Shown here: one piece after another, positions 3,065 to 48,604 of the stretch | How the letters are laid out: each line of letters starts with the position of its first letter | Position numbering within the stretch: position 1 is the first letter of the stretch | Source: Dehalococcoidia bacterium | GTDB taxonomy: Bacteria; Chloroflexota; Dehalococcoidia; GIF9; AB-539-J10 | Length of the DNA: 64,000 nucleotides | Direction: 5' to 3' | NCBI GenBank assembly: GCA_007129495.1 | Contig: SKVJ01000001.1 | Coordinates: forward strand, 1-64,000 | Translations under genes and position numbers: made by a program | Notes under the pieces: model-generated | Database searches by the model: none | Told to the model about the DNA's origin: nothing | What the model saw: only the letters and a program-made list of their open reading frames with translations

Positions 3065-4294
3065 CTATGTTTGTCGATGTCGAGCCCCGATCAACTCCAT
3101 GTACAGTCGCTCCATCTGTAGTGCGTTATAGTTGAAGTCTTCGTGGCCGCGAATGATAGTCGGATTGGTGGTGGCGCAGCGTTGCTGCAACTCCGTGTCA
3201 TTCACCGCCCGCGCGATGGCCTCTGCGAGATCATCGGTATGGTCACCATTAACAAACAAGGCATTGTCACCGTCCCGCAGGTACTGCTGATAGGCTGGTA
3301 CGCGCGAGACAATAGGCACGGAGCCGCAGGCCATGGCCTCCAAAACGCTGGCGCCAAACTGGTCATCCCACGGGATGCATACCGTGGATGCAGCTCTGCT
3401 ATAGAGCGAAGCCATCTCTTCAGGTGTCATTTCACGCTCGATGATTAACACTGCATCTTGTACACACAGTTCACGAATGAGCTTGCGGAGTATCGAAAGG
3501 TAGTTGAGATCGACACCAGCCCCGGTAGCGACAACCAAGTAGACGGCGTAGCCGTTATCATACACCCGTCTAACGGCACGCACGATTCTATCGATTCGAT
3601 AGTGAGGCGCAGCAGTGCGCGGACTGAAGATCACCGAGGCTCCCGAAGGTATCCCTAAGACATCGCAGAACTGTTGCAATGCCTCCCCTGAGCGGGCGTA
3701 GAACACTGTGACATCGATGCCCCAAGGGAAACAGTGAAGATTGCCGCTCGGCACATCATACCCACTCTTCAGAATGTCCCTGAGGTGCGTAGTAGATACT
3801 GTAACCGCATCGGCGCGCGAGACTGCAACGCGAATGAGCCAACGGAGAGGCTGTCCGCAGTGCAACAAGCCGTGTGGTCCCCATCCAGATACTGCAACGG
3901 GGCAGTCCCGGTAAACGTAGGTACAGAGACCCGCGATCATCCCAAACGTATGAAGGTAATGCCCGTGCACAATATCGGGACGCAACGTCCTTAGGCGCCA
4001 TAGAACCTCGGGGAGAGCGGTCCAGAGGAATGCATAGTGCGGCGGCGACATGATGCGCCAGACATGCACGTTTGGCCCAACTGCAACTGCAGAGCCGAGA
4101 GCACGCCAGGTAATGACGTGAACGTCCCACCCGCGGCTTCCAAAGAAATTGGCCCAGCGAATAGTGAAGATGGAACGAATATTCGCCAGATAGACCAGAC
4201 GGCGTGATGCCTGCCCTTTTCTCCACACATCAGGCAACAGAGATGTTTGTGTCACGTTATCTAGTACCACCGTCGCCGATCTTGCTTTCGACAA
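3065..4294 (-). CDS. Glycosyltransferase family 4
   Basis: C-terminal GT4 pattern (FGASVLEAMACGSVPIVSRVPAYQQYLRDGDNALFVNGDHTDDLAEAI). Confidence 0.85.
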   Translation of the reverse strand: MSKARSATVVLDNVTQTSLLPDVWRKGQASRRLVYLANIRSIFTIRWANFFGSRGWDVHVITWRALGSAVAVGPNVHVWRIMSPPHYAFLWTALPEVLWRLRTLRPDIVHGHYLHTFGMIAGLCTYVYRDCPVAVSGWGPHGLLHCGQPLRWLIRVAVSRADAVTVSTTHLRDILKSGYDVPSGNLHCFPWGIDVTVFYARSGEALQQFCDVLGIPSGASVIFSPRTAAPHYRIDRIVRAVRRVYDNGYAVYLVVATGAGVDLNYLSILRKLIRELCVQDAVLIIEREMTPEEMASLYSRAASTVCIPWDDQFGASVLEAMACGSVPIVSRVPAYQQYLRDGDNALFVNGDHTDDLAEAIARAVNDTELQQRCATTNPTIIRGHEDFNYNALQMERLYMELIGARHRQT

Positions 4295-5627
4295 ACTTCA
4301 TCTTGTCTCCCACCGTATGTGGAAGAGCTTGCACTGTCTGAATTCGCACAACCCAGCCTGGACTCAACTCACTGATGGCTTCACGCAGTTTGGCTAGGAC
4401 AGACTGGTGGAACTCTTCGGCAGGAATCACAAGGATCGAGAGTTCCCTGATACTCTCTTGAACTACACGGAACTCCTGCACATGTTGAGACAGGTCGCGA
4501 AACAGAAACACGAAGAACCAACCATGCACCAACTTCCCCTCCGGTGTCACAAGAATATCCGTGCTTCTTCCGCAGATTCGCTTCAACAACGTCCGAGTCC
4601 GGCCACAGGGACAGCTCCCCTGATCCACCTCAGCAAGATCACCAGTGTCATAACGGATCAACGGCATCGCGTAGTTAGTCAGTGTAGTGGCAACAATCCT
4701 CCCAGTTCCTTGCATTAGAGGTCTTCCCTGTTCATCCACTACCTGCAAAAGAGATCGCTCTGTATCGATATGCAACCCCGAGTGGGATTCACATTCGTAG
4801 GCACTGACTCCTCCATCATTAAGCCCGTACCCGTCAAACACGGGGCAGCCAAACGCTCCGCTAATCCTTTCGCGCATCGCTGGCAGGAGAATCTCTGACG
4901 TGGTGAACACAGCTCGTGGTTGCCAGACAGAAATACGGCGGCAGTGCACCCTGTTCGCTAGCACCTGCACAGCACCGGGGTAGCCCCTGATGAACATGGG
5001 TTTCATTCGGTTGATCTGCTCTATATAGAGATCAAGTGACTTGTCAGTCATGTCAAAGGCAGAAAGTTTCACCATGTTTCGCAACGGGTACCCAAGACGT
5101 CGGTGCCATTGTCCATGCTTAGCTCCCAGTGAGCTCCCAGCCAGCACCACAACGCCATCCCCGACCCGGTAGCCGGCATAGCCCCAACCTCGGTACATAA
5201 GCGCCAACCCGATCGCTCGGTCGGATCTGGAAAGGCGATATCGAAGGGGAGTGCCGCTGGTCCCACTGGTGGTACAATCCCGATCACTTGGAAGCCAGCG
5301 ACCGTCTGGAAGGAAGTCCATGCGCTGTCTCGACACATCTTCCCGTGTTACAATCGGCAATTTCGCCACATCAAAGAGTGTTTCAATGTCTTCGGGATCG
5401 ACACCAATATGCGCAGCGGTCCGACGATAATAGGGAACTCTTCGCAATGCGAAACGAATCATGGTTAGAAGGCGGTCGCTCTGAAGAGCATAGCACTCTT
5501 CTGCATTGGCCCACTCCGTTGCGCTCACTCTAGCAAGTGTTGCATGGAAGCCCGGGAACCATACATCATGAGCGGCGAGGGCCGCAGCCTTATGCAAGAA
5601 CGTCATCAATTTGCCATATCGTCGCAC
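4257..5627 (-). CDS. CapK / phenylacetate-CoA ligase-like adenylate-forming enzyme
   Basis: TTSGTSGTPLRYRLS, YGLNDGG and YDTGDLAEVDQGSCPCGRT motifs. Confidence 0.85.
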   Translation of the reverse strand: MRRYGKLMTFLHKAAALAAHDVWFPGFHATLARVSATEWANAEECYALQSDRLLTMIRFALRRVPYYRRTAAHIGVDPEDIETLFDVAKLPIVTREDVSRQRMDFLPDGRWLPSDRDCTTSGTSGTPLRYRLSRSDRAIGLALMYRGWGYAGYRVGDGVVVLAGSSLGAKHGQWHRRLGYPLRNMVKLSAFDMTDKSLDLYIEQINRMKPMFIRGYPGAVQVLANRVHCRRISVWQPRAVFTTSEILLPAMRERISGAFGCPVFDGYGLNDGGVSAYECESHSGLHIDTERSLLQVVDEQGRPLMQGTGRIVATTLTNYAMPLIRYDTGDLAEVDQGSCPCGRTRTLLKRICGRSTDILVTPEGKLVHGWFFVFLFRDLSQHVQEFRVVQESIRELSILVIPAEEFHQSVLAKLREAISELSPGWVVRIQTVQALPHTVGDKMKFVESKIGDGGTR

Positions 5628-11100: not shown

Positions 11101-11451
11101 TGGTGGAGGCGGGGGAGAGTTGAACTCCCCGTCCAGAAAAGAGTTGCCAGAATCTACTACAGGCTTAGTCGGTCGCCATATTGTCGCCTGACCTTCATCC
11201 ACCGACCGAGTCCGGCCAGGCCATCCGGCTCATCTTTCCCGGGCTTCGCCGGCATTTCACCCGGGGCATCCCGGCATTTCGTCGCTCACTCTCAACCCAC
11301 CGGGAAGAGATCGAGGTGAACGCGCAGCCTTATTTAGGCCGCGACGGGAACTAAGTCGTTCTCGTTTATTTTTTGCCACCTGTTTTATGAGGTGGATGGC
11401 ACCTCAGCCTGCAATCCTGTAGGCTCTTCCCTGTCGAACCCACGCGCCCCC
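11101..11451 (-). ncRNA. ssrA: tmRNA (transfer-messenger RNA)
   Basis: Minus strand starts GGGGGCGCGUGGGUUCGACAGGG and ends GACGGGGAGUUCAACUCUCCCCCGCCUCCACCA; the ends pair as a tRNA-like acceptor; tag frame ends ...KINENDLVPVAA-stop; next to smpB. Confidence 0.95.
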
Positions 11452-33882: not shown

Positions 33883-34521
33883 ATGGCATGGAATCGCAGA
33901 GATATCTCAGATGCCGTTCAGAATGGCGATGATCAACAGACGGTAAAACTCGTCAAGGAGGCCATCGACGAGGGAATCCCGGCAACAACGGTGCTGGATG
34001 AGGGGCTGGTTCCCGGCATACAGCAGTTGGGTGCTCTATTTCAAGACGGAGAGGTTTTCCTCCCTGAGGTCCTTATCGCTTGCCGCGCAATGGACAGAGG
34101 AGTGGAAGAGCTCAAGCCCTATCTGTCGGTCGGCGACACTCACAAGAAGGGAAAGGTCGTCCTGGGAACCGTTGAGGGCGACCTGCATGACATCGGTAAG
34201 AACATCGTGCGAATAATGCTGGAGTGTGGGGGATTCGAGGTGATAGATCTGGGAGTCGATGTACCTGCATCTCACTTCGTGGATGCCGTGAAACAGCACT
34301 CCCCTGACATAGTTGGATTGTCGGCTTTGCTCACCATTACCATGATCAACATGAGAGAGGTACTGGATGCCCTGGAGAAGTCAGGACTCAGGGACCGCGT
34401 CAAGGTGATGATTGGTGGGGCTCCGATCACTCGCGAATATGCCGATCAGATCGGAGTCGAAGGTTTCGCCGAGGACTGTGCCGCAGCAGTCGATGAAGCG
34501 ACACGACTTGTCGCGGCGTAG
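33883..34521 (+). CDS. Corrinoid (cobalamin-binding) protein of methyltransferase type
   Basis: GTVEGDLHDIGKNIVRIMLECGGFEVIDLGVDVP = DxHxxG cobalamin-binding motif. Confidence 0.93.
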   Translation: MAWNRRDISDAVQNGDDQQTVKLVKEAIDEGIPATTVLDEGLVPGIQQLGALFQDGEVFLPEVLIACRAMDRGVEELKPYLSVGDTHKKGKVVLGTVEGDLHDIGKNIVRIMLECGGFEVIDLGVDVPASHFVDAVKQHSPDIVGLSALLTITMINMREVLDALEKSGLRDRVKVMIGGAPITREYADQIGVEGFAEDCAAAVDEATRLVAA

Positions 34522-34547
34522 CGGGAAGCGCAAGAAGGAAGCACGTG

Positions 34548-35732
34548 ATGGAAGCATCGCTGAGACAACGGTTCCTGGATATCTGCAGATTCAAGCGCAC
34601 AGGCGATCTCTGTCTCCTTGCACCATGGCTCAACGATTTCTGGATGGAAACACCCGAGGTATGGGTGAAGCAAGGGGCACCCGCCGAACTGATGGACTCG
34701 CGTACGCTGCGCGACTACCTCGAGTTTGAACACATACGCGTTCTACGCGAGATCCAGACCGGCCTATTCATGGACAAACGACTCAACGTGCTGGGCCGGA
34801 ATTACGTCTATGCGATCCCTCCCATTGTCCCGACCTACGAAACGAGGAGGCTCTGTGACGATGAGCACACGATTTCACTTGTAAATGAAGGGGGGCAGGT
34901 GGTTCGCATCGATAAGCGTGACCCGCAGAAGATGCCGATGTATCTGGACCACCCGGTGAAGGATTGGGAGACCTGGCGGGAGTACAAGAAGCGACTGAAC
35001 CCATACGCTCCGGAACGGTTCCCCGCCGACTGGAAGGACTACGCAGCCCGGATGAAGGGCAAGGACGAGCCTCTGTTGCTTAATGTGGGCAGCTTCTTCG
35101 GTTTCCTGCGTGAATGGATGGGCCTGGAACCTCTCTTATATGCGTTTCACGACGATCCGATGTTGATTGAGGACATGATGGATACGCTGTGCGACATGGA
35201 GGTCACCTGCATCACACAAGCCATGAAGGACATCCGAGTGGATGCCGCAGCTTTCTGGGAGGACATGGCTTTCAGATCCGGGCCGCTTATCTCGCCTAAG
35301 ATGTTTCGACAATTCATGATGCCTCGCTACAAGGTGATTACTGACCTGCTTCGTTCCAAAGGAGTCGATATCATCTTTGTCGACAGCGACGGTGGTTTGA
35401 ACCAACTGATACCGCTATGGCTGGAATGTGGTATCAACTTCTTCTGGCCGCTTGAGTGTGCTGCAGGTAATGACGCGGTGTCGCTGCGAAAGCAGTACGG
35501 AAAGGATGCAATTCTCGGAGGGAATATCGACAAGCGAGCCTTGCTAAAAGATAAGAATGTCATTCGCGACGAGGTAATGTCCAAGGTACCATACCTTCTG
35601 GAGACAGGGGGTTACTTCCCCTCGGTTGACCACTTCGTCCCACCGGACGTTCCGTTCGAGAATTACGTCTGCCTCATCAACCTACTGCGCGAGGTTGCGG
35701 GGATGCCTCCCCTTAAGAGGACGCTGGTTTAG
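34548..35732 (+). CDS. Uroporphyrinogen decarboxylase-like (MtaA/CmuA-type) methyltransferase
   Basis: URO-D fold pattern (PLISPKMFRQFMMPRYKVITDLLRSKGVDIIFVDSDGG); adjacent to a corrinoid protein. Confidence 0.8.
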   Translation: MEASLRQRFLDICRFKRTGDLCLLAPWLNDFWMETPEVWVKQGAPAELMDSRTLRDYLEFEHIRVLREIQTGLFMDKRLNVLGRNYVYAIPPIVPTYETRRLCDDEHTISLVNEGGQVVRIDKRDPQKMPMYLDHPVKDWETWREYKKRLNPYAPERFPADWKDYAARMKGKDEPLLLNVGSFFGFLREWMGLEPLLYAFHDDPMLIEDMMDTLCDMEVTCITQAMKDIRVDAAAFWEDMAFRSGPLISPKMFRQFMMPRYKVITDLLRSKGVDIIFVDSDGGLNQLIPLWLECGINFFWPLECAAGNDAVSLRKQYGKDAILGGNIDKRALLKDKNVIRDEVMSKVPYLLETGGYFPSVDHFVPPDVPFENYVCLINLLREVAGMPPLKRTLV

Positions 35733-36612
35733 AGGGAAAACGCTTCAGCGCTTCAAGCATCGCGTACATTCGCGCATAGGCATCGCCAGCCCGATGATCG
35801 GCATGCTCCAGTTGCTGGCCAAGCGACGAAAACTCTTCGATGAGATCCGACCTGTTACGCTCTTCGACGAGATGGGCGAAGTGGGCTGCGCTCTCCTGCA
35901 GGGAAGTCGCAACGGCAGTCGCAGCAGGAAGCGCGGCCAGGAGAGTGCCATACAATTCACTGCCCTCGCAAAGCATACTCTCAGTGAGAGAAATGAGAAC
36001 CTCGAGCGATGTGCCACTCACCTCACGTGCGATCCCGAACTGCCCACTTGCCAGAACAGACCTTGCCACCATGGCCACCACAAGGGCGGGCAGTCCAAGA
36101 ACGACCGACATCACCTCATCATGCGTCTGCGGGTCCATCATTGCCACACGAGCGCCAAGTGGCTCGATGTATCGCCGGACCTTCTCTGAGAGCAGTTCAG
36201 CCGCCTGATTACCCGGCACAAGAATAACATTGTGCCCCGCCAGACCCTCCGCTCCTGAACCGAACATAGGATGAACACCAAGGAAGCGAGCATGCGGCAT
36301 GAACATGTCGGCAGTCCGCTGGGGAGCTACTTTGAGCGAGCTGAGATCGATAACAGCCTGGGACTCGGTCACATGTGGCCCAATATCCCTGATAACTGCT
36401 TCGACTGCATGCATAGGAACGGACATGATAATGAGATCCACACTCCCAACATCCGAGTACCCGGCCACAGCACAACGATCCATAGTGTTCGCCAGTCTCT
36501 GGACGGCCTCGGGTCGCCGACCTATAAGGAGTAGATGGTGGCCTTGCTCATGTAACAGGGTGGCAAACCAGCTTCCCAATTTGCCCGCAGCTCCAATAAT
36601 CGCGATTCTCAC
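35713..36612 (-). CDS. tyrA: Prephenate dehydrogenase
   Basis: MRIAIIGAAGKLGSWFATLLHEQGH, HPMFGSG; last gene of the aro operon. Confidence 0.85.
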   Translation of the reverse strand: MRIAIIGAAGKLGSWFATLLHEQGHHLLLIGRRPEAVQRLANTMDRCAVAGYSDVGSVDLIIMSVPMHAVEAVIRDIGPHVTESQAVIDLSSLKVAPQRTADMFMPHARFLGVHPMFGSGAEGLAGHNVILVPGNQAAELLSEKVRRYIEPLGARVAMMDPQTHDEVMSVVLGLPALVVAMVARSVLASGQFGIAREVSGTSLEVLISLTESMLCEGSELYGTLLAALPAATAVATSLQESAAHFAHLVEERNRSDLIEEFSSLGQQLEHADHRAGDAYARMYAMLEALKRFPSKPASS

Positions 36613-37694
36613 AATGTCTTCCAGATCGGCTTTGCCTTCGGATACGAACCCAGTACTCGCAAGAATATGCAGTACGGCTCAATGCCTTTCAAGGCCACGC
36701 TGCATTGTGGATCGAGTCGATGGCCTTCAAAGTCCAAATAGAAGTTGTACTCCCACGGTTGCTGTCGCGTAGGCCGCGACTCAATCTTGGTAAGATTTAT
36801 CCCCGATTCTGCCAAAACGCGCAAGGCTTCATACAGTGCACCGGGTTCGTGTCGTACAGAAAAGACGATAGAGGTCTTATCGGTTCCAGAAGGCGGGACG
36901 TCACGCTTGGATAGAATGAAGAACCTTGTGTAGTTGTTCTTGCTGTCTTCTATGCCGGTCGCAACAAGCCGCATCCCATAGAGTTCTGCGGCACGAGCAC
37001 CAGCTACCGCACCAGCATCCTGAGTGTGCTGCTCGCTGACCATCTTGACACTGCCCGCAGTGTCATATGCCGGAATCAGTTCACAGTCCAGATGCATCAG
37101 AAAACTGCGACACTGCGCCAATGCCTGTGGATGAGAATACACACGACGAATATCGCCAAGCGTCACGCCGGGCCAGGCAATAAGACAGTGAACAATACGC
37201 AGTGCCGTTTCTCCACATACGCGCACGTCATAGTCGAGGAAGAGATCATACACCCGGCTTATACTACCCTCGGATGAATTCTCGACAGGCACTATGCCGA
37301 ACCTGGTGCGCTCTTCGGCAACAGAAGTGAACACATCGTCGAAACTCTCACACGGGCAGGTAGTAACAGCCCGACCAAAGAACTCCAGCGCAGCTTCCTC
37401 ACTGAACGCCCCCGGCTCTCCCTGAAATGCTACGGTAGTGTGTTGCACCGACTTCGATGCCTCTATGACACGCTCGTAGACACGCGCGACGTCCTGCTCA
37501 TCCACTCCAAACTCACGGGCAAGGGCACGAACGCGCTCGACGACCTGGCGCTCTCTCTCCGCATCCACAATGGGAAGGCCAGCTTCGTTCTTCGTTTCAC
37601 CTATAGACCCTGAGAGCTTCAGTCGATCGGCCAGTAGTCGAACGAGCTCTCTATCCGTATCGTTGATTTGGGCGCGAAGCTCGTCCAGGTTCAT
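36609..37694 (-). CDS. pheA: Bifunctional chorismate mutase / prephenate dehydratase
   Basis: Chorismate mutase N-terminus; VAFQGEPGAFSEEAA, NNYTRFFIL, ESRPTRQQPWEYNFYLDFEGH (ACT). Confidence 0.96.
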   Translation of the reverse strand: MNLDELRAQINDTDRELVRLLADRLKLSGSIGETKNEAGLPIVDAERERQVVERVRALAREFGVDEQDVARVYERVIEASKSVQHTTVAFQGEPGAFSEEAALEFFGRAVTTCPCESFDDVFTSVAEERTRFGIVPVENSSEGSISRVYDLFLDYDVRVCGETALRIVHCLIAWPGVTLGDIRRVYSHPQALAQCRSFLMHLDCELIPAYDTAGSVKMVSEQHTQDAGAVAGARAAELYGMRLVATGIEDSKNNYTRFFILSKRDVPPSGTDKTSIVFSVRHEPGALYEALRVLAESGINLTKIESRPTRQQPWEYNFYLDFEGHRLDPQCSVALKGIEPYCIFLRVLGSYPKAKPIWKTL

Positions 37695-38782
37695 ACTACT
37701 ACCCTCGGCATCAGACCGGCCCGGAGAGCAAGATCGCACACTACGCAGGCAACCACCGCCTCCACCACTACGACCGCACGAGGCACGATACATGTATCAT
37801 GTCGGCCTCGGATGACAAGATCAACTGCCGTCCCCTTGTCCAGGTCCACCGTGGATTGTGCACGACTGATTGACGGCGTAGGCTTGAAACCCACACGGAG
37901 CACCACAGGCATCCCTGTCGACATGCCGCCCAGGATGCCACCCGAGTCATTCCTGGCCGTGACAACACGGCCATCACGAACGGCAAACGGATCATTCCCC
38001 TCCGAACCCCGCACCTGGCACAGAGCGAAACCTGATCCGAATTCGATACCTTTCACCGCTGGTATGGAAAATACGCCGCGCGCGACTTCACCCTCCAGTC
38101 CCGCGAACACGGGTTCACCGATTCCGACAGGCAAACCGAGCACGACACATTCAACGATTCCGCCAACGCTGTCGCCCTGCGCTCTCGCTGCTTCAATAAC
38201 CTTGCCCATCAAGGCCGAACTGGCCTCGTCGCAGCAACCCAAACTGTCCTTTCCGCTCAGCACCCGAATCGATTTCGGATCGCACGGCGGCGCCTCGACC
38301 CCACCAATACCAACGGTATGCGCACATACTTCAACGCCGATTCGCGCAAGTGCGGCCCGTGCCACAGCCCCTGCCATAACGAAGCCAACTGTGATGCGTC
38401 CAGAGAATCGCCCTCCGCCTCGCGGATCGTTATAACCACCGTACTTGATCCCGGCAGGATAGTCAGCATGTCCTGGCCGGGGAGTTCGCATGTATTCACT
38501 GTACTCGTGAGACTCGATATCAGCATTGTCAACCAGCATACAGATCGGAGCGCCGGTAGTGTGGCCTTGATACACGCCGGAGAGGACACGGGCGATGTCC
38601 GCTTCCCTCCGGGGCGTCGCTCCCATCTGATCCCTGGCTCGCCTGCGGTCGAGGTCGTTCTGTATCATGTCGACCTCGAGATTCACGCCGGCTGGGCAAC
38701 CTTCCACCACCACGCCAATACATTTCCCGTGACTCTCACCAAAACTGGTAATGCGGAATAACAGGCCAAGGTTATCACTCAT
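37691..38782 (-). CDS. aroC: Chorismate synthase
   Basis: FRITSFGESHGKCIGVVVEGCPAG, DPRGGGRFSGRIT. Confidence 0.98.
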   Translation of the reverse strand: MSDNLGLLFRITSFGESHGKCIGVVVEGCPAGVNLEVDMIQNDLDRRRARDQMGATPRREADIARVLSGVYQGHTTGAPICMLVDNADIESHEYSEYMRTPRPGHADYPAGIKYGGYNDPRGGGRFSGRITVGFVMAGAVARAALARIGVEVCAHTVGIGGVEAPPCDPKSIRVLSGKDSLGCCDEASSALMGKVIEAARAQGDSVGGIVECVVLGLPVGIGEPVFAGLEGEVARGVFSIPAVKGIEFGSGFALCQVRGSEGNDPFAVRDGRVVTARNDSGGILGGMSTGMPVVLRVGFKPTPSISRAQSTVDLDKGTAVDLVIRGRHDTCIVPRAVVVVEAVVACVVCDLALRAGLMPRVVV

Positions 38783-40037
38783 CTAACTGCACCTTCACTC
38801 CAAGGCTGCTCAAGCTGTCCCAGAAACCAGGAAAGGTCTTCGATACGCATCCGGCATCTTCGACAACGATGTCGCCAATTGCTGCACCGATCACACCAAA
38901 CGCCATAGCGATGCGGTGGTCACCTGCGGACGATATCACGCCACCGCGCACGGCGCCACCCCACACTCTCATTTCGTCAGCCTCGACCTCCACGCGAACG
39001 CCCAGACGAGTCAGCCCCTCAGTCATTGCTGCCACCCGATCGGACTCCTTGTCGCGCGCCCGGGCGATGCCGGTGAGCCGTGTGACGCCCTCAGCGGTGG
39101 CTGCCAGGATACAGGCTACAGGGAGTAAATCTATCGACTCCGCAAGGTCAAATGTGTCTCCTTCCAGTGCCGACTTTCTCGTTGTCACGCCAGTGCTGTC
39201 AACCAGTACCTGCGCGTTGATTCGCTGGAGCAACTCAACCATCATAGTATCGGCCTGAAGGCTCGTGCGGCAGAGACCGAGAACCCGCACCTCTCCTGCC
39301 AGTGCTCCGAGTCCGAGTAGTGCCGCCCCTGTGGACCAGTCGCCCTCCACTGTGTAGCGGGTCGGCATATACGCTCCGGCCGGCACTGCAAACCTGCGCC
39401 CACCTTCAGATACGCAAACTTCAACCCCAAACTCGCGCATACACGACAGCGTCATCTGAACGTACCGCTCGGAAACGACTTCCGACGATACATCAATACG
39501 AAGGCCTTGGTCATACCGGGGTCCCGACAGTAAAATAGCCGAAAGAAACTGCGAACTGACATCCCCCCGCAACCGGACATGCCCCGTCTGCTGTCGACGC
39601 CCGCAGACAATCAACGTCCCGGTAAGTGAATCGAAGTCACACTCAGCACCGAGCTGTCTAATGGCTTCTACCAAAGGCTGCATAGGTCTTCGTGCGAGGG
39701 ACGGAGCGCACCGCAGGATAGTCCGGCCAGGGATGGTCGCAGCCAGAGCCGCCAGGAATCGGAAGGTGGCGCCGGACTCCCGGCACCATAGCGGCGCGGA
39801 ATCAGGACGAAGACACCCACCTCTGATCACAATCCCCTGTTCAGACTCGGACACGCCAGCCCCCAGCCCTCGAACGCAATCTAATACCGCAGTTGAATCA
39901 TCCGATTGAAGTGCCCCTGCTATCAGGCTTTCGCCTTCCGCCATCGCAGCACACAACGCCGCGCGGATCGTATAGCTCTTGGAGCCGGGAGCATGTACAA
40001 CTCCTTCAGCAGCACTCATTGAAACGCGCGCTCTCAC
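38775..40037 (-). CDS. aroA: 3-phosphoshikimate 1-carboxyvinyltransferase (EPSP synthase)
   Basis: VHAPGSKSYTIRAALCAAMAEGES, DHRIAMAFGVIGA; GTG start overlapping the aroK stop as GTGA. Confidence 0.96.
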   Translation of the reverse strand: MRARVSMSAAEGVVHAPGSKSYTIRAALCAAMAEGESLIAGALQSDDSTAVLDCVRGLGAGVSESEQGIVIRGGCLRPDSAPLWCRESGATFRFLAALAATIPGRTILRCAPSLARRPMQPLVEAIRQLGAECDFDSLTGTLIVCGRRQQTGHVRLRGDVSSQFLSAILLSGPRYDQGLRIDVSSEVVSERYVQMTLSCMREFGVEVCVSEGGRRFAVPAGAYMPTRYTVEGDWSTGAALLGLGALAGEVRVLGLCRTSLQADTMMVELLQRINAQVLVDSTGVTTRKSALEGDTFDLAESIDLLPVACILAATAEGVTRLTGIARARDKESDRVAAMTEGLTRLGVRVEVEADEMRVWGGAVRGGVISSAGDHRIAMAFGVIGAAIGDIVVEDAGCVSKTFPGFWDSLSSLGVKVQLDE

Positions 40038-40558
40038 AGTTGTTTCAGCCTCTCCTCTGTTGTCTGAAGTATCTGTTCCACCGTAAGGCCATCCGTCTGC
40101 ACTGTAATGTCGGCTGCTGCGCAATAAGCAGGAAGGCGCTGTTCCATCAACTCCCTCACTCGCGTCTCCTGATCATCGGTATCCAGCAGGGGCCTCACCC
40201 GGCTGCCAGGCCTGAGCCGCTGAATCACGGCACGCGGTGTCACATCCAGAAACACCACGATTGACGATGCCCTGAGGGCAGCAACATTCTCATGCCGCAA
40301 TACAACACCACCACCACAGGAAATAACGCAATCACGCATTTGTGCTGCCTGCTCGACTACTTCAGATTCAATTTCGCGAAACCGTTCCTCGCTTTGCAGT
40401 GCGAATATGTCTGCAACAGTCATTCCGGCCCGCTGTTCGACAAGGACATCCGTCTCCACAAACGACTTCTCCAAGCGTGCGGCAAGACCGCGTCCAATGG
40501 TGGACTTTCCTGCACCCATGAATCCTATCAGGGCAACGTTAGTGTGAGCCATGTCCAA
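40034..40558 (-). CDS. aroK: Shikimate kinase
   Basis: IGFMGAGKSTIGRGLAARLEKSFVETDVLVE; RPLL. Confidence 0.96.
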   Translation of the reverse strand: MDMAHTNVALIGFMGAGKSTIGRGLAARLEKSFVETDVLVEQRAGMTVADIFALQSEERFREIESEVVEQAAQMRDCVISCGGGVVLRHENVAALRASSIVVFLDVTPRAVIQRLRPGSRVRPLLDTDDQETRVRELMEQRLPAYCAAADITVQTDGLTVEQILQTTEERLKQL

Positions 40559-41402
40559 GTTCTCTACACACGATTGAACGCATCACGTCGACCGGTGCTG
40601 CCGTACCTGTCCATAGTTGAAATGCCAGTGCGCCCTGCTGCACCAGCATTTCAACTCCATTCACCACTACTGCTCCACTGGCCGCAGCATCCTTGAGAAG
40701 CCTCGTCTGAGGAGGGTTGTATACGATGTCACAGACCGCCAGGTCGCGCCGCAGGTATCGACGTGGACAAGGTGTTTCGTTCCAGTGTGGATGCATTCCA
40801 CCGGTCGTCGCATTCACCAGCAGGGAAGCTGAGGCCAGTCGTGTCTCAAGTGCCGTATCTGCGAGGACGTCGTGCATAATCCGGGCACCGGTAGCGACAG
40901 CCACATCCTCAGCCAGAGATGCAGCCTTTACAACGTTACGATTCAGTACGGTGAGCCGAGCTCCACGATCAAGCAACGAGAATGCGACTGCGCGTGCCGC
41001 ACCGCCAGCCCCCAGCACGACCACCTCTTTGTCTTTCACTTCGATGCCGTGTAACTCAAGGCCACGCAGAAAGCCGGGTGCATCAGTGTTGTGACCGCAG
41101 AGATAACCATCCTTGCTCACGATCGTATTCACCGCTCCAATTCGCATGGCAGAGGGTTCCACTTGATCGAGAAAGCGCATTATGTCGACTTTGTGCGGCA
41201 CAGTCACATTAAGGCCACGTATCCCAAGAGTACGCATTGCCCTGGCACCTATCTCCGCAGCTCCACGCGGCAATCGAAATGGAACGTAGACGAAATTCAG
41301 TCCGCTGGTTTCGAACGCCACGTTATGCATCATCGGGGACAGCGAATGCTCGATGGGATCACCCACAATGCCACACAATGTTGTAGCGCCAGTAATCCAC
41401 AT
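40539..41402 (-). CDS. aroE: Shikimate dehydrogenase
   Basis: GDPIEHSLSPMMHN, GLNVTVPHK, GHNTDAPGFLRGL, VLGAGGAARAVAF. Confidence 0.97.
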   Translation of the reverse strand: MWITGATTLCGIVGDPIEHSLSPMMHNVAFETSGLNFVYVPFRLPRGAAEIGARAMRTLGIRGLNVTVPHKVDIMRFLDQVEPSAMRIGAVNTIVSKDGYLCGHNTDAPGFLRGLELHGIEVKDKEVVVLGAGGAARAVAFSLLDRGARLTVLNRNVVKAASLAEDVAVATGARIMHDVLADTALETRLASASLLVNATTGGMHPHWNETPCPRRYLRRDLAVCDIVYNPPQTRLLKDAAASGAVVVNGVEMLVQQGALAFQLWTGTAAPVDVMRSIVCRELGHGSH

Positions 41403-41403
41403 G

Positions 41404-42066
41404 CTATATCACTCCCATCGCATCATACACTGCCCGAAGTTGAGCAACGGTAAGCTGACCGGGAGCGGCCTCGTGACCCGCGGCAAGTGAGGCGTAAGTG
41501 AACTCCGCCCCCACAAGAGGTGCCAGGATGCGACTGGTCGTTCCCGGTATTCCCATAGCGAAGGTAACGATGCGGTGTGCGGAATAGTGGCGAGCCAGAC
41601 GCAGCACGGTAACGGTATCTTCCACGTTCCGTGCTGTGGTCACGACCTTACAGATATCCGCACCAAGGTCTTTCTGGCGTTCAACTACCTCAGTAAGAGC
41701 CGGCCATTCATCGGTCTTTTCGAAGTCATGGTGCGAAACGAGCACAGCCGCCCGGCCCTTTATTCCGCGTATGAAGGAACATGCGTCGGGTGCCTGCATC
41801 TCGACATCAACGATTGCGGCACCATCCTCAACCGCCTGCTGGAGGGCGTCCACACGCTCGGTCTCTGTGCCGCAGTAACCGCCTCCTTGGCTTGAGAGGC
41901 GGTTGCATGCGATCCACGGCCTGGGCAATGCCCGTGCCACTTCCGTCCACCCGTCACCTATGAGATCAATTCGAACCTCGTACAGCGATACCAGATCCTT
42001 CACAGCGACCGCGGCATCAATATCGGCCGCCGTCGTAATACATGCGCAGATATCAGGCGACGACAT
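41404..42066 (-). CDS. aroD: 3-dehydroquinate dehydratase, type I
   Basis: VRIDLIGD, VSHHDFEKT, DICKVVTTARN (Schiff-base Lys), TFAMGIPGTTSRIL. Confidence 0.95.
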   Translation of the reverse strand: MSSPDICACITTAADIDAAVAVKDLVSLYEVRIDLIGDGWTEVARALPRPWIACNRLSSQGGGYCGTETERVDALQQAVEDGAAIVDVEMQAPDACSFIRGIKGRAAVLVSHHDFEKTDEWPALTEVVERQKDLGADICKVVTTARNVEDTVTVLRLARHYSAHRIVTFAMGIPGTTSRILAPLVGAEFTYASLAAGHEAAPGQLTVAQLRAVYDAMGVI

Positions 42067-43144
42067 GGGACCTCACCAGAGTCTCTTTCACCAGGTTCAT
42101 AGGCACATCACAATGGATATGAGCCTCGCCTACCTTCAAAGGCAATACAAAGCGCAAGCGACCCTTGGCCACCTTCTTGTCCCGGGTCATCGCACGCAGG
42201 ACAGCATCAACATCCAGGCAGGACGGAATGAAAACCGGCAGTTGCGCCCTCCTAAGCAAAGCCCTCAGGCGCTCGAAATCGGGGGGAGAAATCATCCCAA
42301 GATGTCTGGCAATCTGGCCGGCTGCGACCATGCCGATGGCAACCGCTTCTCCATGAGACAGCGAAAACGCAGATGCCGATTCGATACCGTGACCCACCGT
42401 GTGGCCAAAGTTGAGTATGTTGCGCAGACCAGTGTCCTTCTCATCTTCCTCCACAACCGCAGCCTTGATGCTCGCAGTCGCTGCTACGATCTTCTCGAGA
42501 ACGTTCTCGTCCCGCGCCATCACCCGGCAAATCTCCGACTCAAGGTAGTGGAAGAATGCCTCGTCACGAATCATCGCGCTCTTTATGACCTCCGCAAGTC
42601 CGTTGCAGAACTCGCGCTCAGGAAGGTGCCTCAATACGGACGTGTCGGTAATAACGGACACCGGCTGATGAAATGCGCCGATATTGTTCTTTAATCCACC
42701 GTGGTTCACCGCCACTTTCCCGCCAATGCTGCTGTCAACCTGCGCAAGAAGCGTTGTTGGAACGTGGACAAGTGGCAGCCCCCGAAAATATGTGGCTGCT
42801 ACGAAGCCAGCCAGATCTCCCACAACACCTCCACCAAGTGCAACAAGCGGAGTGGAGCGCTCGGCGCCTATCTCGTTAAGCCTTCCGTACAACTGTGCGG
42901 AGGTCTCGAGGGACTTCTGCTCCTCACCCGCAGGGAGCACCATGAGCACTGGACTGAACCCACCATCCAGGAGGCTTTGCCGAACCTGGTTTCCGAAAAG
43001 GCCGTCAACCGTTTGATCGGTGATGACCACCACGGTGCCTGAGAAGCCGAGCCTCATGAGTTCCTTTGCCACTACGCCAAGCGCGCCTGCGCCGATCGTC
43101 ATGCGGTACAGGCTGCCAGAACACCAGACATGGGTGGTTCTCAT
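42053..43144 (-). CDS. aroB: 3-dehydroquinate synthase
   Basis: LPAGEEQKSLE, ALGGGVVGDLAGFVAATYFRGLPLVHVPTTLLAQVDSSIGGKVAVNH. Confidence 0.97.
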   Translation of the reverse strand: MRTTHVWCSGSLYRMTIGAGALGVVAKELMRLGFSGTVVVITDQTVDGLFGNQVRQSLLDGGFSPVLMVLPAGEEQKSLETSAQLYGRLNEIGAERSTPLVALGGGVVGDLAGFVAATYFRGLPLVHVPTTLLAQVDSSIGGKVAVNHGGLKNNIGAFHQPVSVITDTSVLRHLPEREFCNGLAEVIKSAMIRDEAFFHYLESEICRVMARDENVLEKIVAATASIKAAVVEEDEKDTGLRNILNFGHTVGHGIESASAFSLSHGEAVAIGMVAAGQIARHLGMISPPDFERLRALLRRAQLPVFIPSCLDVDAVLRAMTRDKKVAKGRLRFVLPLKVGEAHIHCDVPMNLVKETLVRSHVVA

Positions 43145-43145
43145 C

Positions 43146-44201
43146 TCAGGTCCTCTTGGCCAGTACATGCAGCCGACGACACGCTTGAATGATCTCCTCG
43201 AGCTCGTCGGGAGTCACCATCTGCGGCCCGTCCACCAACGCCTCAGATGGGTCATAATGGGCTTCAATCATGAGACCATCCGCGCCTGCAGCAACTGCAG
43301 CGCAACTCATGGAGAATATCAGGTCTCGCCGGCCGGTGCTATGACTGGGGTCCACGATGACGGGCAGGTAGGTCTCATTGTGAATCACCGGTACCGCCGC
43401 AAGGTCCAGAGTGTACCTGGTGAAGCTCCTCCCCTTGCCCATCGGAACGATACCCCTTTCACATAGAATTATGTCTTTGTTGCCCTCGGCAGCTATGTAC
43501 TCGCTGAACGAGAGCAGTTCCTCGATGCTTGCTCCAAAATGCCGCTTGAGCAACACCGGCTTCTGTTGTCTTGCGACAGCAACGAGAAGATCCTGGTCAT
43601 ACATGTTGCGCGCGCCGATGTGCATGATGTCGACGTATCGAGCAACCAGTTCAACCATCGATTCTCCCCTTACTTCGGTTACGACCGGCATATCGTACTC
43701 ATCACCCGCTTGCCTGAGCCAGTGCAGCGCCTCTTCCGCACCCTCTGTGCCTGCCGCCCCCAGACCCTGAAACGAATGCACTGAACTTCGCGGTTTGAAG
43801 ACACCGCCTCTGAGCACGTGCGCCCCGGCTCTCTTCACCTCTTCGCCGATACGCATCAGTTGGGCCCGGCTTTCCACAGCACACGGCCCCGCGATAATAA
43901 CAGGTTCGCCGTTTCCAAGGTGCACATCACCAATGGTAACGGTCTTGTGTGCTCCCGGCTCACCGAAGAAGCGAGCGTATTCCCGACTAATGAGCTTGTA
44001 GGGAGTTTCAACCATGTTCGCCTCTTTCACTCCCGGCAAGGTAGCGAGATGGTCGAACGCCAATCTGCGTTCATCGCCGACGGGACCGATGACCGTCATG
44101 AACTCGCCGCGAGACACATCAGCCCGCAGCCCACTTCGTTCGATCTCGCCGACAACTCTCTGGATATCCTCCTCGGTGGCATCCGTCCTCATGATAATCA
44201 T
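43146..44201 (-). CDS. aroF: 3-deoxy-7-phosphoheptulonate synthase with N-terminal ferredoxin-like domain
   Basis: GPCAVESRAQL, LRGGVFKPRSSVHSFQGLG, VIVDPSHSTGRRDL. Confidence 0.96.
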   Translation of the reverse strand: MIIMRTDATEEDIQRVVGEIERSGLRADVSRGEFMTVIGPVGDERRLAFDHLATLPGVKEANMVETPYKLISREYARFFGEPGAHKTVTIGDVHLGNGEPVIIAGPCAVESRAQLMRIGEEVKRAGAHVLRGGVFKPRSSVHSFQGLGAAGTEGAEEALHWLRQAGDEYDMPVVTEVRGESMVELVARYVDIMHIGARNMYDQDLLVAVARQQKPVLLKRHFGASIEELLSFSEYIAAEGNKDIILCERGIVPMGKGRSFTRYTLDLAAVPVIHNETYLPVIVDPSHSTGRRDLIFSMSCAAVAAGADGLMIEAHYDPSEALVDGPQMVTPDELEEIIQACRRLHVLAKRT

Positions 44202-44267
44202 CGCGTTTCCTCCGTTATCGCTTGCCCGGGGCGTTTACGTCCTCACTCCCGTGGCATACAATAAAGA

Positions 44268-44294
44268 AAGGACCCTCCCGCCGGGAGGGTCCTT
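44268..44294 (-). terminator. Intrinsic terminator in the aro operon leader
   Basis: Minus strand AAGGACCCTCCCG-G-CGGGAGGGTCCTT followed by TCTTTATT; 67 nt upstream of aroF ATG. Confidence 0.85.
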
Positions 44295-44323
44295 CTATTG
44301 TCTTCTGCCATCTACCTGTTGTA

Positions 44324-44404
44324 CTACGTTACAAGGCCGCTCCCGGGCGTGAGCGTGTGATAAAAGTAAAACCAATAACCAAAATACGCCCGAAAAGTCT
44401 TCAT
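44324..44404 (-). CDS. Aromatic-rich attenuator leader peptide MKTFRAYFGYWFYFYHTLTPGSGLVT (alternative in-frame ATG at 44422 adds MLRIPT)
   Basis: Read directly on the minus strand; 4 Phe, 4 Tyr and 1 Trp in residues 4-15; lies between a promoter and a terminator upstream of aroF. Confidence 0.85.
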   Translation of the reverse strand: MKTFRAYFGYWFYFYHTLTPGSGLVT

Positions 44405-44433
44405 TGTCGGAATTCGCAGCATCAGGTTAGATG

Positions 44434-44463
44434 ATTGTAGTGAGGCTGCGTCGCAATTGTCAA
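44434..44463 (-). promoter_or_regulatory. Aro operon promoter TTGACA-N18-TACAAT
   Basis: Minus strand -35 at 44463..44458, -10 at 44439..44434, directly upstream of the leader ORF. Confidence 0.8.
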
Positions 44464-44626: not shown

Positions 44627-45556
44627 ATGAGCGCATCATACGAACTCGCCAGGTACAGACCCGAATCCCCGACACTGCTGACACTCGGGGTCTTCGATGG
44701 TGTGCATCGCGGACATCTCTATCTCATTGATACTTTGCGTGCACACGCTCGCACACGCGGGTTACTGCCCGGTATCGTGACATTCACCCCTCACCCTATG
44801 GAAGTACTCCACCCCTGCTTACGTCTACCCCTCCTCACCAGTCTTGAGGAACGTCTGCAACTGCTGAAAGAGAAGGCGGAAACTGCTTTGATCGCTCCAC
44901 TTACGTTCACGCGTGAGCTTAGCGAGTACAGTCCGGATGAGTTCGTCCAAGTACTGTTGGAGCACCTGAACATGGCCGGCCTCGTGCTCGGTCCTGACTT
45001 CGGGATGGGAAAGGACCGTGCCGGCACCGTCCGCACGTTGGAGAGACTGGGTTCCGACCGAGGATTCAGCGTTGAAGTGGTACCTCCCTACAGGATAGGT
45101 GGAGAGATAGTCAGCAGCACTGCCATCCGAGAAGCCCTCTCACAGGGAGATCTCAAAAAGGCTGCTTGCATGCTCGGCCGGAGATTCAGCGTCAGCGGCA
45201 CAGTGATCTCGACGAGCCGTAGAGGAGCATCTCTTGGCTATCCCACCGCCAACCTGATCATCGGCCCTGAACGAGCGTTGCCACGTGACGGGGTTTATGC
45301 TACCATCGCTCACGTACCGAACGGGCGCTTTGGAGCTGTCACCAACATCGGATACCGACCTACCTTCGGCCTCACAGAGCGTGTAGTGGAGACCCACATT
45401 CTCGATTTCGACGGACACATCTACGGAACCCTTCTTAAGATTGAGTTTCTTGCGATGATTAGAGGGGAGATCACCTTTCGGAATCCCGAGGCGCTCGTGG
45501 CACAAATCCATCTGGATGTGAAGGCCGCGCGCCAGGTTCTCGGAGAGTACGGATGA
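44627..45556 (+). CDS. ribF: Bifunctional riboflavin kinase / FAD synthetase
   Basis: TLGVFDGVHRGHLYLI, SSTAIREALSQGDLKKA, GYPTANL, TNIGYRPTFG. Confidence 0.96.
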   Translation: MSASYELARYRPESPTLLTLGVFDGVHRGHLYLIDTLRAHARTRGLLPGIVTFTPHPMEVLHPCLRLPLLTSLEERLQLLKEKAETALIAPLTFTRELSEYSPDEFVQVLLEHLNMAGLVLGPDFGMGKDRAGTVRTLERLGSDRGFSVEVVPPYRIGGEIVSSTAIREALSQGDLKKAACMLGRRFSVSGTVISTSRRGASLGYPTANLIIGPERALPRDGVYATIAHVPNGRFGAVTNIGYRPTFGLTERVVETHILDFDGHIYGTLLKIEFLAMIRGEITFRNPEALVAQIHLDVKAARQVLGEYG

Positions 45557-46797
45557 GCGACATGCCAAGGGTAACCCTACTGCGAGACTTACCACCACCG
45601 AAGCGTGATTTTCTACTGCGTCGCGGTGTCGCCGAGATAATACCAGAAGCGGAGTTCGTCGCACGTCTCAACCGAGGCACACCTGCCCGCCTGAAGGAGG
45701 GGTTCGACCCGAGTTCCCCTGATATCCACCTCGGTCACGTTGTAGGGCTTCGCAAGCTACGGCAACTCCAGGAACTGGGACACAAGGTCATCCTGATCGT
45801 GGGCAATTGGACGGCACGAATAGGTGACCCCAGCGGACAGTCGACCACGAGGCCAATGCTTTCTGAGGCCGAGATCGAACAGAACGCACAGACATACATG
45901 GAACAGTTCTTCAAGGTGGTCGACAAAGACCGCACGGAGGTGCGCTGGCAGACAGAATGGTTTTCCCAGTTTACTCTGGACAGCGTTATCCGGCTGACCG
46001 CGCGATTTACCGTTGCGCAGATACTGGCTCGAGAGGACTTCAGCAAACGCTACGCGTCAGGCAGTCCAATTTCCCTTTGCGAGACCCTTTATCCTCTGCT
46101 TCAGGCATACGATTCCTTCGCTATCGATTCGGATGTTGAATTCGGAGGCATGGACCAGAAGTTCAACTGCCTCCTGGGGCGAGAACTGCAGCAGATGATG
46201 GGCCAGAACCCTCAGCAAGTCTTTTTCACTCCTATCCTTGTTGGTACAGATGGCAAGAGCAAGATGAGCAAGAGCCTGGGAAACTACATCGGCGTGACCG
46301 AGCCTCCCGAGCAGATGTACGGCAAAGTTATGTCGCTTGACGACAGTTTGATATTAGACTACTTTGAACTCGTTACCGATATATCGGACGAGGAACTTAT
46401 CGATTTGAAGCATTCGTTCGGCACAGGCACCGCACATCCAATGCTCGCCAAGAAGAAACTCGCAAGAGAGATAACACAGCAGTTCCACGGTCCTGAGGCT
46501 GCGGTACAGGCAGAGGAACACTTCACTCGCGTACATCAACAGCGCGAGCTGCCCAGCGACATGCCGGAAGTGTTGTTCCAGGGAGTTTCCGAAGAAAACG
46601 GGGGGACCCGAGTTCAACTTGCGCCGGCGCTCGTGACTGGCGGCCACGTGAAAAGCGCCAGTGAACTGAAACGTCTGGTCGCGCAAAATGCAGTAGAGGT
46701 CGACGGACGGCGAATCAGCGAAATGAACGCCCTTGTCCGGGATGGCTCAGTGCTGAAGATTGGAAGGCGAATCTTCGTGCGCGTGAAGATCAAGTAG
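45553..46797 (+). CDS. tyrS: Tyrosyl-tRNA synthetase
   Basis: DIHLGHVVGLRKLRQLQ, KSKMSKSLGNYI, S4 domain at the C-terminus; ATGA overlap with ribF. Confidence 0.97.
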   Translation: MSDMPRVTLLRDLPPPKRDFLLRRGVAEIIPEAEFVARLNRGTPARLKEGFDPSSPDIHLGHVVGLRKLRQLQELGHKVILIVGNWTARIGDPSGQSTTRPMLSEAEIEQNAQTYMEQFFKVVDKDRTEVRWQTEWFSQFTLDSVIRLTARFTVAQILAREDFSKRYASGSPISLCETLYPLLQAYDSFAIDSDVEFGGMDQKFNCLLGRELQQMMGQNPQQVFFTPILVGTDGKSKMSKSLGNYIGVTEPPEQMYGKVMSLDDSLILDYFELVTDISDEELIDLKHSFGTGTAHPMLAKKKLAREITQQFHGPEAAVQAEEHFTRVHQQRELPSDMPEVLFQGVSEENGGTRVQLAPALVTGGHVKSASELKRLVAQNAVEVDGRRISEMNALVRDGSVLKIGRRIFVRVKIK

Positions 46798-47026
46798 CAG
46801 CACCTACGTCCTTAACACATCATGAATATGAGCATCGTATCACCGTGCGATCGATAATTCCGGAACCGCCGCGTTCTCTTCTTGAGACGCTGGAAGCCGA
46901 GCTCAACTGAATTAGGCGCCAACGGTGGAAGCAACTTGCCTCTCTGGATAGACAACTCCCGCAGGGAACTGGGGGATCTGACAGCACTCAGGAAGTGTTG
47001 CGGCGAACACAATAAGGGGGATAGAC

Positions 47027-48604
47027 ATGAGGATCCTTGTAGCTGATCCCATTGCCGACGAAGGAGTTGCGCGACTTCGGCAATGCACCTCGGTGGATGT
47101 CAAGACCAACCTGTCTGTTGAGGATCTCTGCAATGAGGTGCAGAACTACCATGCGCTCGTAGTCAGGAGTCAGACAAGGGTCACCGCCAACATCATCGAT
47201 CGAGGCCGGAATCTACAGGTCATTGGCCGTGCAGGTGTAGGTGTGGACAACATCGATGTCGAGGCCGCTACCCGATGTGGCATCGTTGTCGTCAATGCTC
47301 CGGCTGGCAACACAGTGGCGGCCACCGAGCACACTATGGCTCTCATGCTCGCCCTCGCCCGAAACGTGACGCAGGCCGATGCAGAAATGCGCAAGGGCAC
47401 GTGGGCACGCGGCAAGCTTATGGGCACCGAGTTGAGGAACAAGACGTTGGGTATCGTGGGATTGGGAAACATTGGAACTCAAGTTGCTCTAAGAGCTCAG
47501 GCCTTCGAGATGCGAACCATAGCGTACGACCCCTATATCTCGGCGGAGTATGCTCGCTCGTTCAAAGTGAACCTCGTGTCGCTCGAGGAACTACTAAGTC
47601 AGGCCGACTACATCACTCTCCATCTCCCACTCTCCTCCGCGACGAAGAACCTTATCGGTTCCGTTGAACTGGAACTCATGAAACCTACCGCCCGCCTTAT
47701 CAATTGCGCGCGCGGTGGTGTAGTCGATGAATTCGCTGTTGCCGCCGCACTTGGAGAGGGCAGAATTTCGGGGGCGGCTTTCGATGTATTCAGTGAAGAA
47801 CCCCCGACAAACAGCCCGATTCTGACTGCGCCCAGGTGCATCCTGACACCCCATCTCGGAGCCTCGACAATTGAGGCACAAACCAACGTATCGATCGACA
47901 TCGCCGAACAGGTCATCACAGTTCTTGAGGGGCGAATGAGCAAATACGCAGTCAATGCACCACACGCCTCTCCGGAGATAATACCGTTTGTGCGGATGAG
48001 TGAGACCGTAGGCAGCTTCGCCAGCCAGTTAATGGAAGGTCAAATCCGCAAAGTAAACGTGAGCTATGCGGGAGACTTGCAGCTGAGTGACTTCGAACCA
48101 TTGAAAGCTGGAGTGATCAGCGGCATTCTGCAGCGAGCCACAGAGGACCGCGTCAACCTGGTGAATGCAGAACTGATTGCCCGACAACGCGGCCTCAAGG
48201 TCATCGAGGAGTTCGACCCGGAATGCGTGAACTATTCGAATCTCCTGACCGTTACACTGGAAACCAATAAGGGCAGCACATCGGTGTCAGGTACAGTGCG
48301 GGATGGGCAGACACGTATTGTGCGGATCAATAATTTCTGGATGGATATCGGTCTGACTGAGAATCACTTCCTGCTTTGCGACCACATCGATGGTCCAGGC
48401 CTTGTGGGCGCCATAGGCACAGTGCTTGGACAGGCGGGTATCAACATAAGTTCAATGCACCTGAGCCGACTTGCACCCAGGGGGGAAGCTCTTTTTGTGA
48501 TGGCCCTTGATGAGCCGGTAGGCGACGCGCAGAAGAACGTCATACAGGTGATTCCAAACATCCACACAGTCAGGACTGTGAGCCTTACCGACTGGATTCC
48601 CTAA
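47027..48604 (+). CDS. serA: D-3-phosphoglycerate dehydrogenase (long, ACT-containing form)
   Basis: GRAGVGVDNIDVEAAT, GIVGLGNIGTQVA, TPHLGASTIEAQ, ACT domain. Confidence 0.97.
   Translation: MRILVADPIADEGVARLRQCTSVDVKTNLSVEDLCNEVQNYHALVVRSQTRVTANIIDRGRNLQVIGRAGVGVDNIDVEAATRCGIVVVNAPAGNTVAATEHTMALMLALARNVTQADAEMRKGTWARGKLMGTELRNKTLGIVGLGNIGTQVALRAQAFEMRTIAYDPYISAEYARSFKVNLVSLEELLSQADYITLHLPLSSATKNLIGSVELELMKPTARLINCARGGVVDEFAVAAALGEGRISGAAFDVFSEEPPTNSPILTAPRCILTPHLGASTIEAQTNVSIDIAEQVITVLEGRMSKYAVNAPHASPEIIPFVRMSETVGSFASQLMEGQIRKVNVSYAGDLQLSDFEPLKAGVISGILQRATEDRVNLVNAELIARQRGLKVIEEFDPECVNYSNLLTVTLETNKGSTSVSGTVRDGQTRIVRINNFWMDIGLTENHFLLCDHIDGPGLVGAIGTVLGQAGINISSMHLSRLAPRGEALFVMALDEPVGDAQKNVIQVIPNIHTVRTVSLTDWIP

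Follow-up and report, generated by a model that had tools for sequence, protein, structure and literature searches.

In E. coli, the trp (trpL) and pheA (pheL) operons and pheST are each regulated by an attenuator that responds to a single amino acid, belonging to a terminal branch or a synthetase, by means of stall codons in a leader, alternative 1:2, 2:3 and 3:4 pairings of the transcript, and a U-tract terminator. The DAHP synthase genes aroF, aroG and aroH of this bacterium are controlled by the TyrR and TrpR repressors. Multivalent attenuators precede the enterobacterial thrA (Thr/Ile) and ilvGMEDA (Ile/Val/Leu) genes, in each of which codons for more than one end product of a common pathway stand in the same leader. 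Upstream of aroF itself, a leader peptide with Phe-Tyr-Phe, aroR, has been described in Corynebacterium glutamicum and proposed to act by ribosome-mediated transcription attenuation (PMC11802643, PMC4046766), and the uORFC-13-1 motif of Acholeplasma, which comprises a uORF with Phe codon(s), a promoter and a terminator before aroF, is a candidate attenuator (PMC8632094). According to a 2010 paper, which itself added Firmicutes, demonstrated leader-peptide systems had until then been confined to Proteobacteria and Actinobacteria (PMC2965389). The literature that we searched, covering few subscription papers, contains only a passing mention of leader peptides in Dehalococcoides/Chloroflexi, and there seems to be no earlier account for Chloroflexota.

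The aro locus analyzed here lies in a 64,000-nt stretch of contig SKVJ01000001.1 from a Dehalococcoidia bacterium (the window) and has the anatomy of the E. coli attenuators, with a leader that would sense three amino acids rather than one. It resembles thrA and ilvGMEDA in covering more than one product of a common pathway, although these belong to another pathway and another phylum. Like aroR, it is an aromatic-codon leader in front of a DAHP synthase gene; however, aroR has Phe and Tyr codons only and comes from a different phylum, whereas the Dehalococcoidia leaders contain Phe, Tyr and usually Trp and precede a conserved nine-gene block, the two being likened by description. The Acholeplasma motif, also from another phylum, has at least one Phe reported and no established antiterminator, in contrast to the mixed aromatic run of Dehalococcoidia. 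The original prediction regarded one leader sensing Phe, Tyr and Trp together ahead of DAHP synthase and the whole common pathway as unusual, which is right in part, aroF leaders being represented already by aroR and the Acholeplasma candidate. The kind of attenuator is known already; new are its class-wide occurrence, the mixed run, the whole-operon target, and a duplicated, apparently retuned leader. The features of the locus are as follows.

44434..44463, minus strand: sigma-70-type promoter of the aro operon, TTGACA-N18-TACAAT (11 of 12 matches; site conserved in related loci)
44324..44404, minus strand: leader peptide ORF, MKTFRAYFGYWFYFYHTLTPGSGLVT, stop TAG (from the sequence; aromatic codon run kept in 67 of 67 orthologous upstream regions)
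44386..44392, minus strand: segment 1, CGGGCGT, forming the putative protector 1:2 hairpin with its partner ACGCCCG at 44350..44344 (sequence; swap test)
44333..44350, minus strand: segment 2, serving the 1:2 hairpin as 3' arm and the antiterminator as 5' arm (conserved 2:3 duplex; swap test; double-sided changes)
44281..44294, minus strand: segment 3, 3' arm of the antiterminator, or 5' arm of the terminator plus loop (sequence; 2:3 duplex and double-sided changes in relatives)
44267..44280, minus strand: segment 4, 3' arm of the terminator, followed by the U-rich tail CTTTATT (top terminator-like site; 3:4 swap tests)
43146..44201, minus strand: aroF, DAHP synthase with a ferredoxin-like regulatory domain (PF00793 + PF18152), first gene of the operon (Pfam)
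42053..43168, minus strand: aroB, 3-dehydroquinate synthase (Pfam)
41404..42066, minus strand: aroD, type I 3-dehydroquinase (Pfam)
40539..41402, minus strand: aroE, shikimate dehydrogenase (Pfam)
40034..40558, minus strand: aroK, shikimate kinase (Pfam)
38775..40124, minus strand: aroA, EPSP synthase (Pfam)
37691..38782, minus strand: aroC, chorismate synthase (Pfam)
36609..37793, minus strand: pheA, chorismate mutase-prephenate dehydratase with an ACT domain (Pfam)
35713..36612, minus strand: tyrA, prephenate dehydrogenase, end of the conserved nine-gene block (Pfam; gene-order comparison)

The promoter, the leader ORF and the four segments with their U-rich tail were read from the minus strand exactly as originally predicted. 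Within 14 kb, the promoter is the top promoter-like site and the terminator (44295..44267) the highest-ranked terminator-like site. The leader has 26 codons, and nine of its residues 4-15, the putative stall codons, are aromatic (four Phe, four Tyr and one Trp). A scan of the window for start/stop frames 10-50 codons long gave 2855, and among them nine aromatics in twelve residues occur only in the two readings of the aro leader that start at ATG 44404 and ATG 44422, the runner-up frames reaching six per twelve residues. The second of these ATGs, which the original prediction had noted as a possible in-frame start, is present in the sequence but was rejected as the main start for want of conservation. 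Shine-Dalgarno signals ahead of the leader ATG in the window are weak, and this ATG lies 29 nt after the -10 box, outside the leaderless type. A conserved ORF as short as this one is likely to be overlooked by ordinary annotation.

The aroF-to-tyrA genes were assigned by Pfam domains, from which it follows that its enzymes lead to chorismate and that the branches to Phe and Tyr are included. The description as a complete shikimate operon is too narrow, since pheA and tyrA follow; trpE is absent from the operon. The order aroF-B-D-E-K-A-C-pheA-tyrA is kept in five congeners, one of whose loci ends within tyrA, and also in five genomes of greater distance. Among the latter are Dehalogenimonas lykanthroporepellens BL-DC-9 and Dehalococcoides mccartyi 195, and Dehalococcoides belongs to a different order of the class Dehalococcoidia (Chloroflexota) from the window genome. 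Divergently from the aro operon and sharing its intergenic region, ribF, tyrS (tyrosyl-tRNA synthetase) and serA, named by eye, occupy 44627-48604 on the plus strand; a T-box was not found at tyrS of the window.

Orthologs of aroF, defined by about 64% AroF identity or more, were drawn from relatives, from named genomes and from 393 genomes of the class Dehalococcoidia. An ortholog is present in 51 of the 393, and the main copy could be read in all of these except one partial case; the labels of the named MAGs, whose AroF is 64-70% identical, read Dehalococcoidales, Dehalococcoidia or Chloroflexi/Chloroflexota. After five duplicate or near-identical loci were dropped, 67 non-redundant upstream regions remained, and every one of them has an aromatic-rich leader ORF at the equivalent position, including those of D. 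mccartyi 195, Dehalogenimonas lykanthroporepellens BL-DC-9 and 'Ca. Dehalogenimonas loeffleri' W. By a single rule of at least five aromatics in ten residues, such a leader is found in 70 of 71 orthologous loci vs one of 74 upstream regions of non-orthologous aroF genes, and a chance occurrence of aromatic leaders at any aroF was rejected on this count. Within the first 20 leader residues of the 67 loci, Phe is present in 66, Tyr in 67 and Trp in 49, with all three in 48. Class-wide leader-peptide attenuation in Chloroflexota would thereby include cultured organohalide respirers used in bioremediation, and the aro attenuator is the most visible control element of the Dehalococcoidia aromatic amino acid operon.

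The promoter is conserved together with the leader. A good TTGAC-type site lies directly upstream of the leader in 66 of 67 loci, nearly all with TTGACA, and the form TTGAC(A/G)-N17/18-TANNNT is seen in almost all of the 67. These data bear on the explanation that the terminator belongs to a transcript arriving from upstream, with aroF having its transcription start at some other place. That a terminator exists at all would agree with that and nothing further does: the neighbouring ribF (44627..45556, plus strand) diverges, so that no upstream gene ends here, and the best promoter sits upstream of the terminator and is conserved, which leaves this explanation scarcely credible. As to the attenuator reading, the distance from the -10 box to the leader ATG is 12 nt or less in 22 of the 66 loci with a strong promoter, a spacing from which translation of a leaderless or nearly leaderless mRNA is predicted. 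The leaders of D. mccartyi and most Dehalogenimonas have this leaderless-type spacing. The original aroR report, by Neshat et al. in 2014, is said to call such attenuators leaderless.

The aligned upstream regions of the orthologs keep both the aromatic run and the alternative stems, and the stems co-vary. In all but one locus, segment 2 pairs with the 5' arm of the terminator and usually also with its loop; the exception, L130, has no convincing 2:3 pairing or terminator according to an automatic rule. The terminator loop occurs as AAGC, AGGC, AGAC or CGGC and tracks segment 2 (GCTT/AAGC, GCCT/AGGC, GTCT/AGAC), although the loop need not pair in the 3:4 structure. For the 2:3 helix, an alignment of 34 sequences contains 39 double-sided changes vs 13.9 ± 5.0 in shuffles (0 of 500), a signal that collapses when the helix is slid by one to three columns. 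Comparing cognate with swapped partners, which needs no alignment, gave z = -9.6 for 2:3 over the 67 loci (0 of 20000) and z = -8.5 for 1:2; within the genus of the window alone, 2:3 remains significant (39 of 10000) and 1:2 is borderline (z = -1.7, 547 of 10000), the latter being significant outside this genus. As the loops differ in length, MAFFT puts the terminator out of register when all leaders are aligned together, and 3:4 pairs were therefore counted outward from each loop and tested by partner swapping, with z values of -4.5, -5.8 and -12.8 in three subgroups. The probabilities from swap tests are strong but inexact, related sequences being non-independent. Cognate segments thus outpair swapped ones for all three of the competing stems that had been predicted, with 1:2 borderline within the genus.

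Segment 2 lies inside the leader ORF, and the reading frame in which its core is translated distinguishes constraint on the RNA from constraint on the peptide. Among 31 scored loci, frames 0, 1 and 2 are used 13, 9 and 9 times, giving read-outs such as PGG, PGSG, CAWG and RLGG; since no frame is preferred throughout, the constraint on segment 2 acts at the level of the RNA and not of the peptide, whereas in the aromatic run it is the codons that are constrained. Nascent-peptide arrest of the TnaC type, in which the peptide together with a free aromatic amino acid or other ligand stalls the ribosome, would fit a leader peptide that is rich in aromatics and in parts looks conserved as peptide (TPGSG in the genus). 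However, the conserved PGSG, CAWG and RLGG are segment 2 seen in differing frames, Phe, Tyr and Trp interchange freely within the run, and with the given geometry stalling by an excess of an aromatic amino acid would turn the operon on in excess. Peptide arrest is very improbable and was rejected on the use of all three frames.

A ligand-binding riboswitch or T-box that runs the operon, the small ORF being incidental, deserves even less credence, despite the T-box control of trpE in the same genus. Both were rejected at aroF by Rfam searches: the aro leader matches no Rfam family and has no T-box sequence, and the T-box RF00230 was not found upstream of aroF. What is conserved in the aro leader is an ORF with its codons, together with three short helices that exclude one another. 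The Rfam Trp, Phe, Thr, Leu and His leader families likewise had no match in the window at the gathering threshold, nor in L001, L031, L012, L010 and L042 at E values up to 0.5.

The anatomy of the locus, which is conserved across the Dehalococcoidia, and the co-varying alternative stems indicate that a leader-peptide, ribosome-mediated transcription attenuator very probably governs the aromatic amino acid operon, its function being deduced from comparative sequence data. The trp/phe-type logic of the original prediction is borne out by the conserved aromatic run and the co-varying stems in orthologs; its term 'translation-type attenuator' is a misnomer, as the anatomy is that of transcription attenuation. 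We infer the stalling, the response to Phe/Tyr/Trp and the termination itself as follows. RNA polymerase would start at the promoter and transcribe the leader ORF. When charged tRNA for Phe, Tyr or Trp is scarce, the ribosome would stall in the aromatic run with its front edge just upstream of segment 2, allowing the 2:3 antiterminator to form and transcription to run on into aroF-B-D-E-K-A-C-pheA-tyrA. When all three aromatics are plentiful, the ribosome would reach the stop codon and cover segment 2, leaving 3:4 to pair and transcription to end at the U-tract. In a leader without translation, 1:2 and then 3:4 would tend to form.

The spacing of these elements is consistent with such a sequence of events. 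Over the 67 loci, the end of the aromatic run is separated from segment 2 by a median of 14 nt, roughly what the front half of a ribosome covers, and the leader stop follows segment 2 at a median distance of 10 nt, so that a terminating ribosome overlaps segment 2. The 174-nt leader of the window folds with -59.5 kcal/mol (z = -3.3 vs dinucleotide shuffles). In masked folding of this leader, 6-8 2:3 pairs are expected with the ribosome stalled within the aromatic run vs 0.1 with the ribosome at the stop codon. The ribosome-free leader of the window still favors 2:3 in the nascent fold of a simple model, with 1:2 not clearly preferred, and termination of the untranslated leader is not clearly predicted; in the same model, the ribosome-free leaders of L042 and L158 prefer 1:2.

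A second, stand-alone aroF (L031-L035; L031 at 4048-5118, plus strand, in G000:C69) is present in the window genome and in four congeners, and has its own aromatic leader, promoter and terminator. In a tree, the second copies group together (91/90), and the operon copy L006 stays without a resolved place. The stand-alone leaders are rich in Phe and Trp and poor in Tyr, the F/Y/W counts being 19/22/5 in operon-copy leaders vs 21/6/5 in stand-alone ones (Fisher p = 0.012, for counts that are not independent). These sequences suggest that the leader may have been retuned after aroF duplication. As one combined proposal, a pooled sensor of any aromatic amino acid, isozyme leaders retuned by codon choice after aroF duplication, and about a third of the leaders being leaderless can be put forward only tentatively. 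If the pooled sensor is real, Phe, Tyr and Trp codons would be equivalent within one run and lack of any one aromatic amino acid would open the whole chorismate-Phe-Tyr operon. If the isozyme leaders were retuned, to Tyr-rich in the operon copy and to Phe/Trp-rich and Tyr-poor in the stand-alone copy, attenuators would control the isozymes much as TyrR and TrpR do for the DAHP synthases of E. coli. The leaders offer a natural series for the study of three-amino-acid sensing, of leaderless vs led leader translation, and of leader divergence after isozyme duplication.

A second aroF copy in G274, 59% identical, is the one exception among close copies: it has no leader, and its upstream region resembles coding sequence. 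In the loci L019-L030, mostly from other genera of the window's family, the sole aroF is a distant one (about 47% identity) and no aromatic leader precedes it, and the aroF ortholog with its leader is found in families more distant than these genera; either the gene was replaced in L019-L030 or their family assignment is in question.

A T-box (RF00230; L126 in G000:C53, 2934-3201 on the minus strand, and L123, L124, L125 and L128) precedes trpE in G038 as well as in the genus of the window, the window's genome included, and has GAA-TGG, read by eye, at the expected Trp specifier position. In G037 and G040 (L121, L122), about 255 nt upstream of trpE, there is instead a leader peptide, MVKAYSNITPVRNTNNWWWRNMLLHVREDIA, with three Trp codons (WWW) and a terminator, its ATG lying close behind the -10 box. 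The alternation of T-box vs leader peptide at trpE is a switch of sensing systems within one order, and in the window's genome the branch-specific control (the trpE T-box) and the common-pathway control (the leader peptide) are different devices. Another RNA element, a molybdenum/tungsten cofactor riboswitch (RF01055), is located close to aroF in G038 (L010, 1036-1155, minus strand). The window also contains a tmRNA (RF00023) at 11101-11451 on the minus strand and, at 33883-35732 on the plus strand, a corrinoid-protein-like ORF followed by a uroporphyrinogen-decarboxylase-like methyltransferase ORF, both recognized by eye from their translations.
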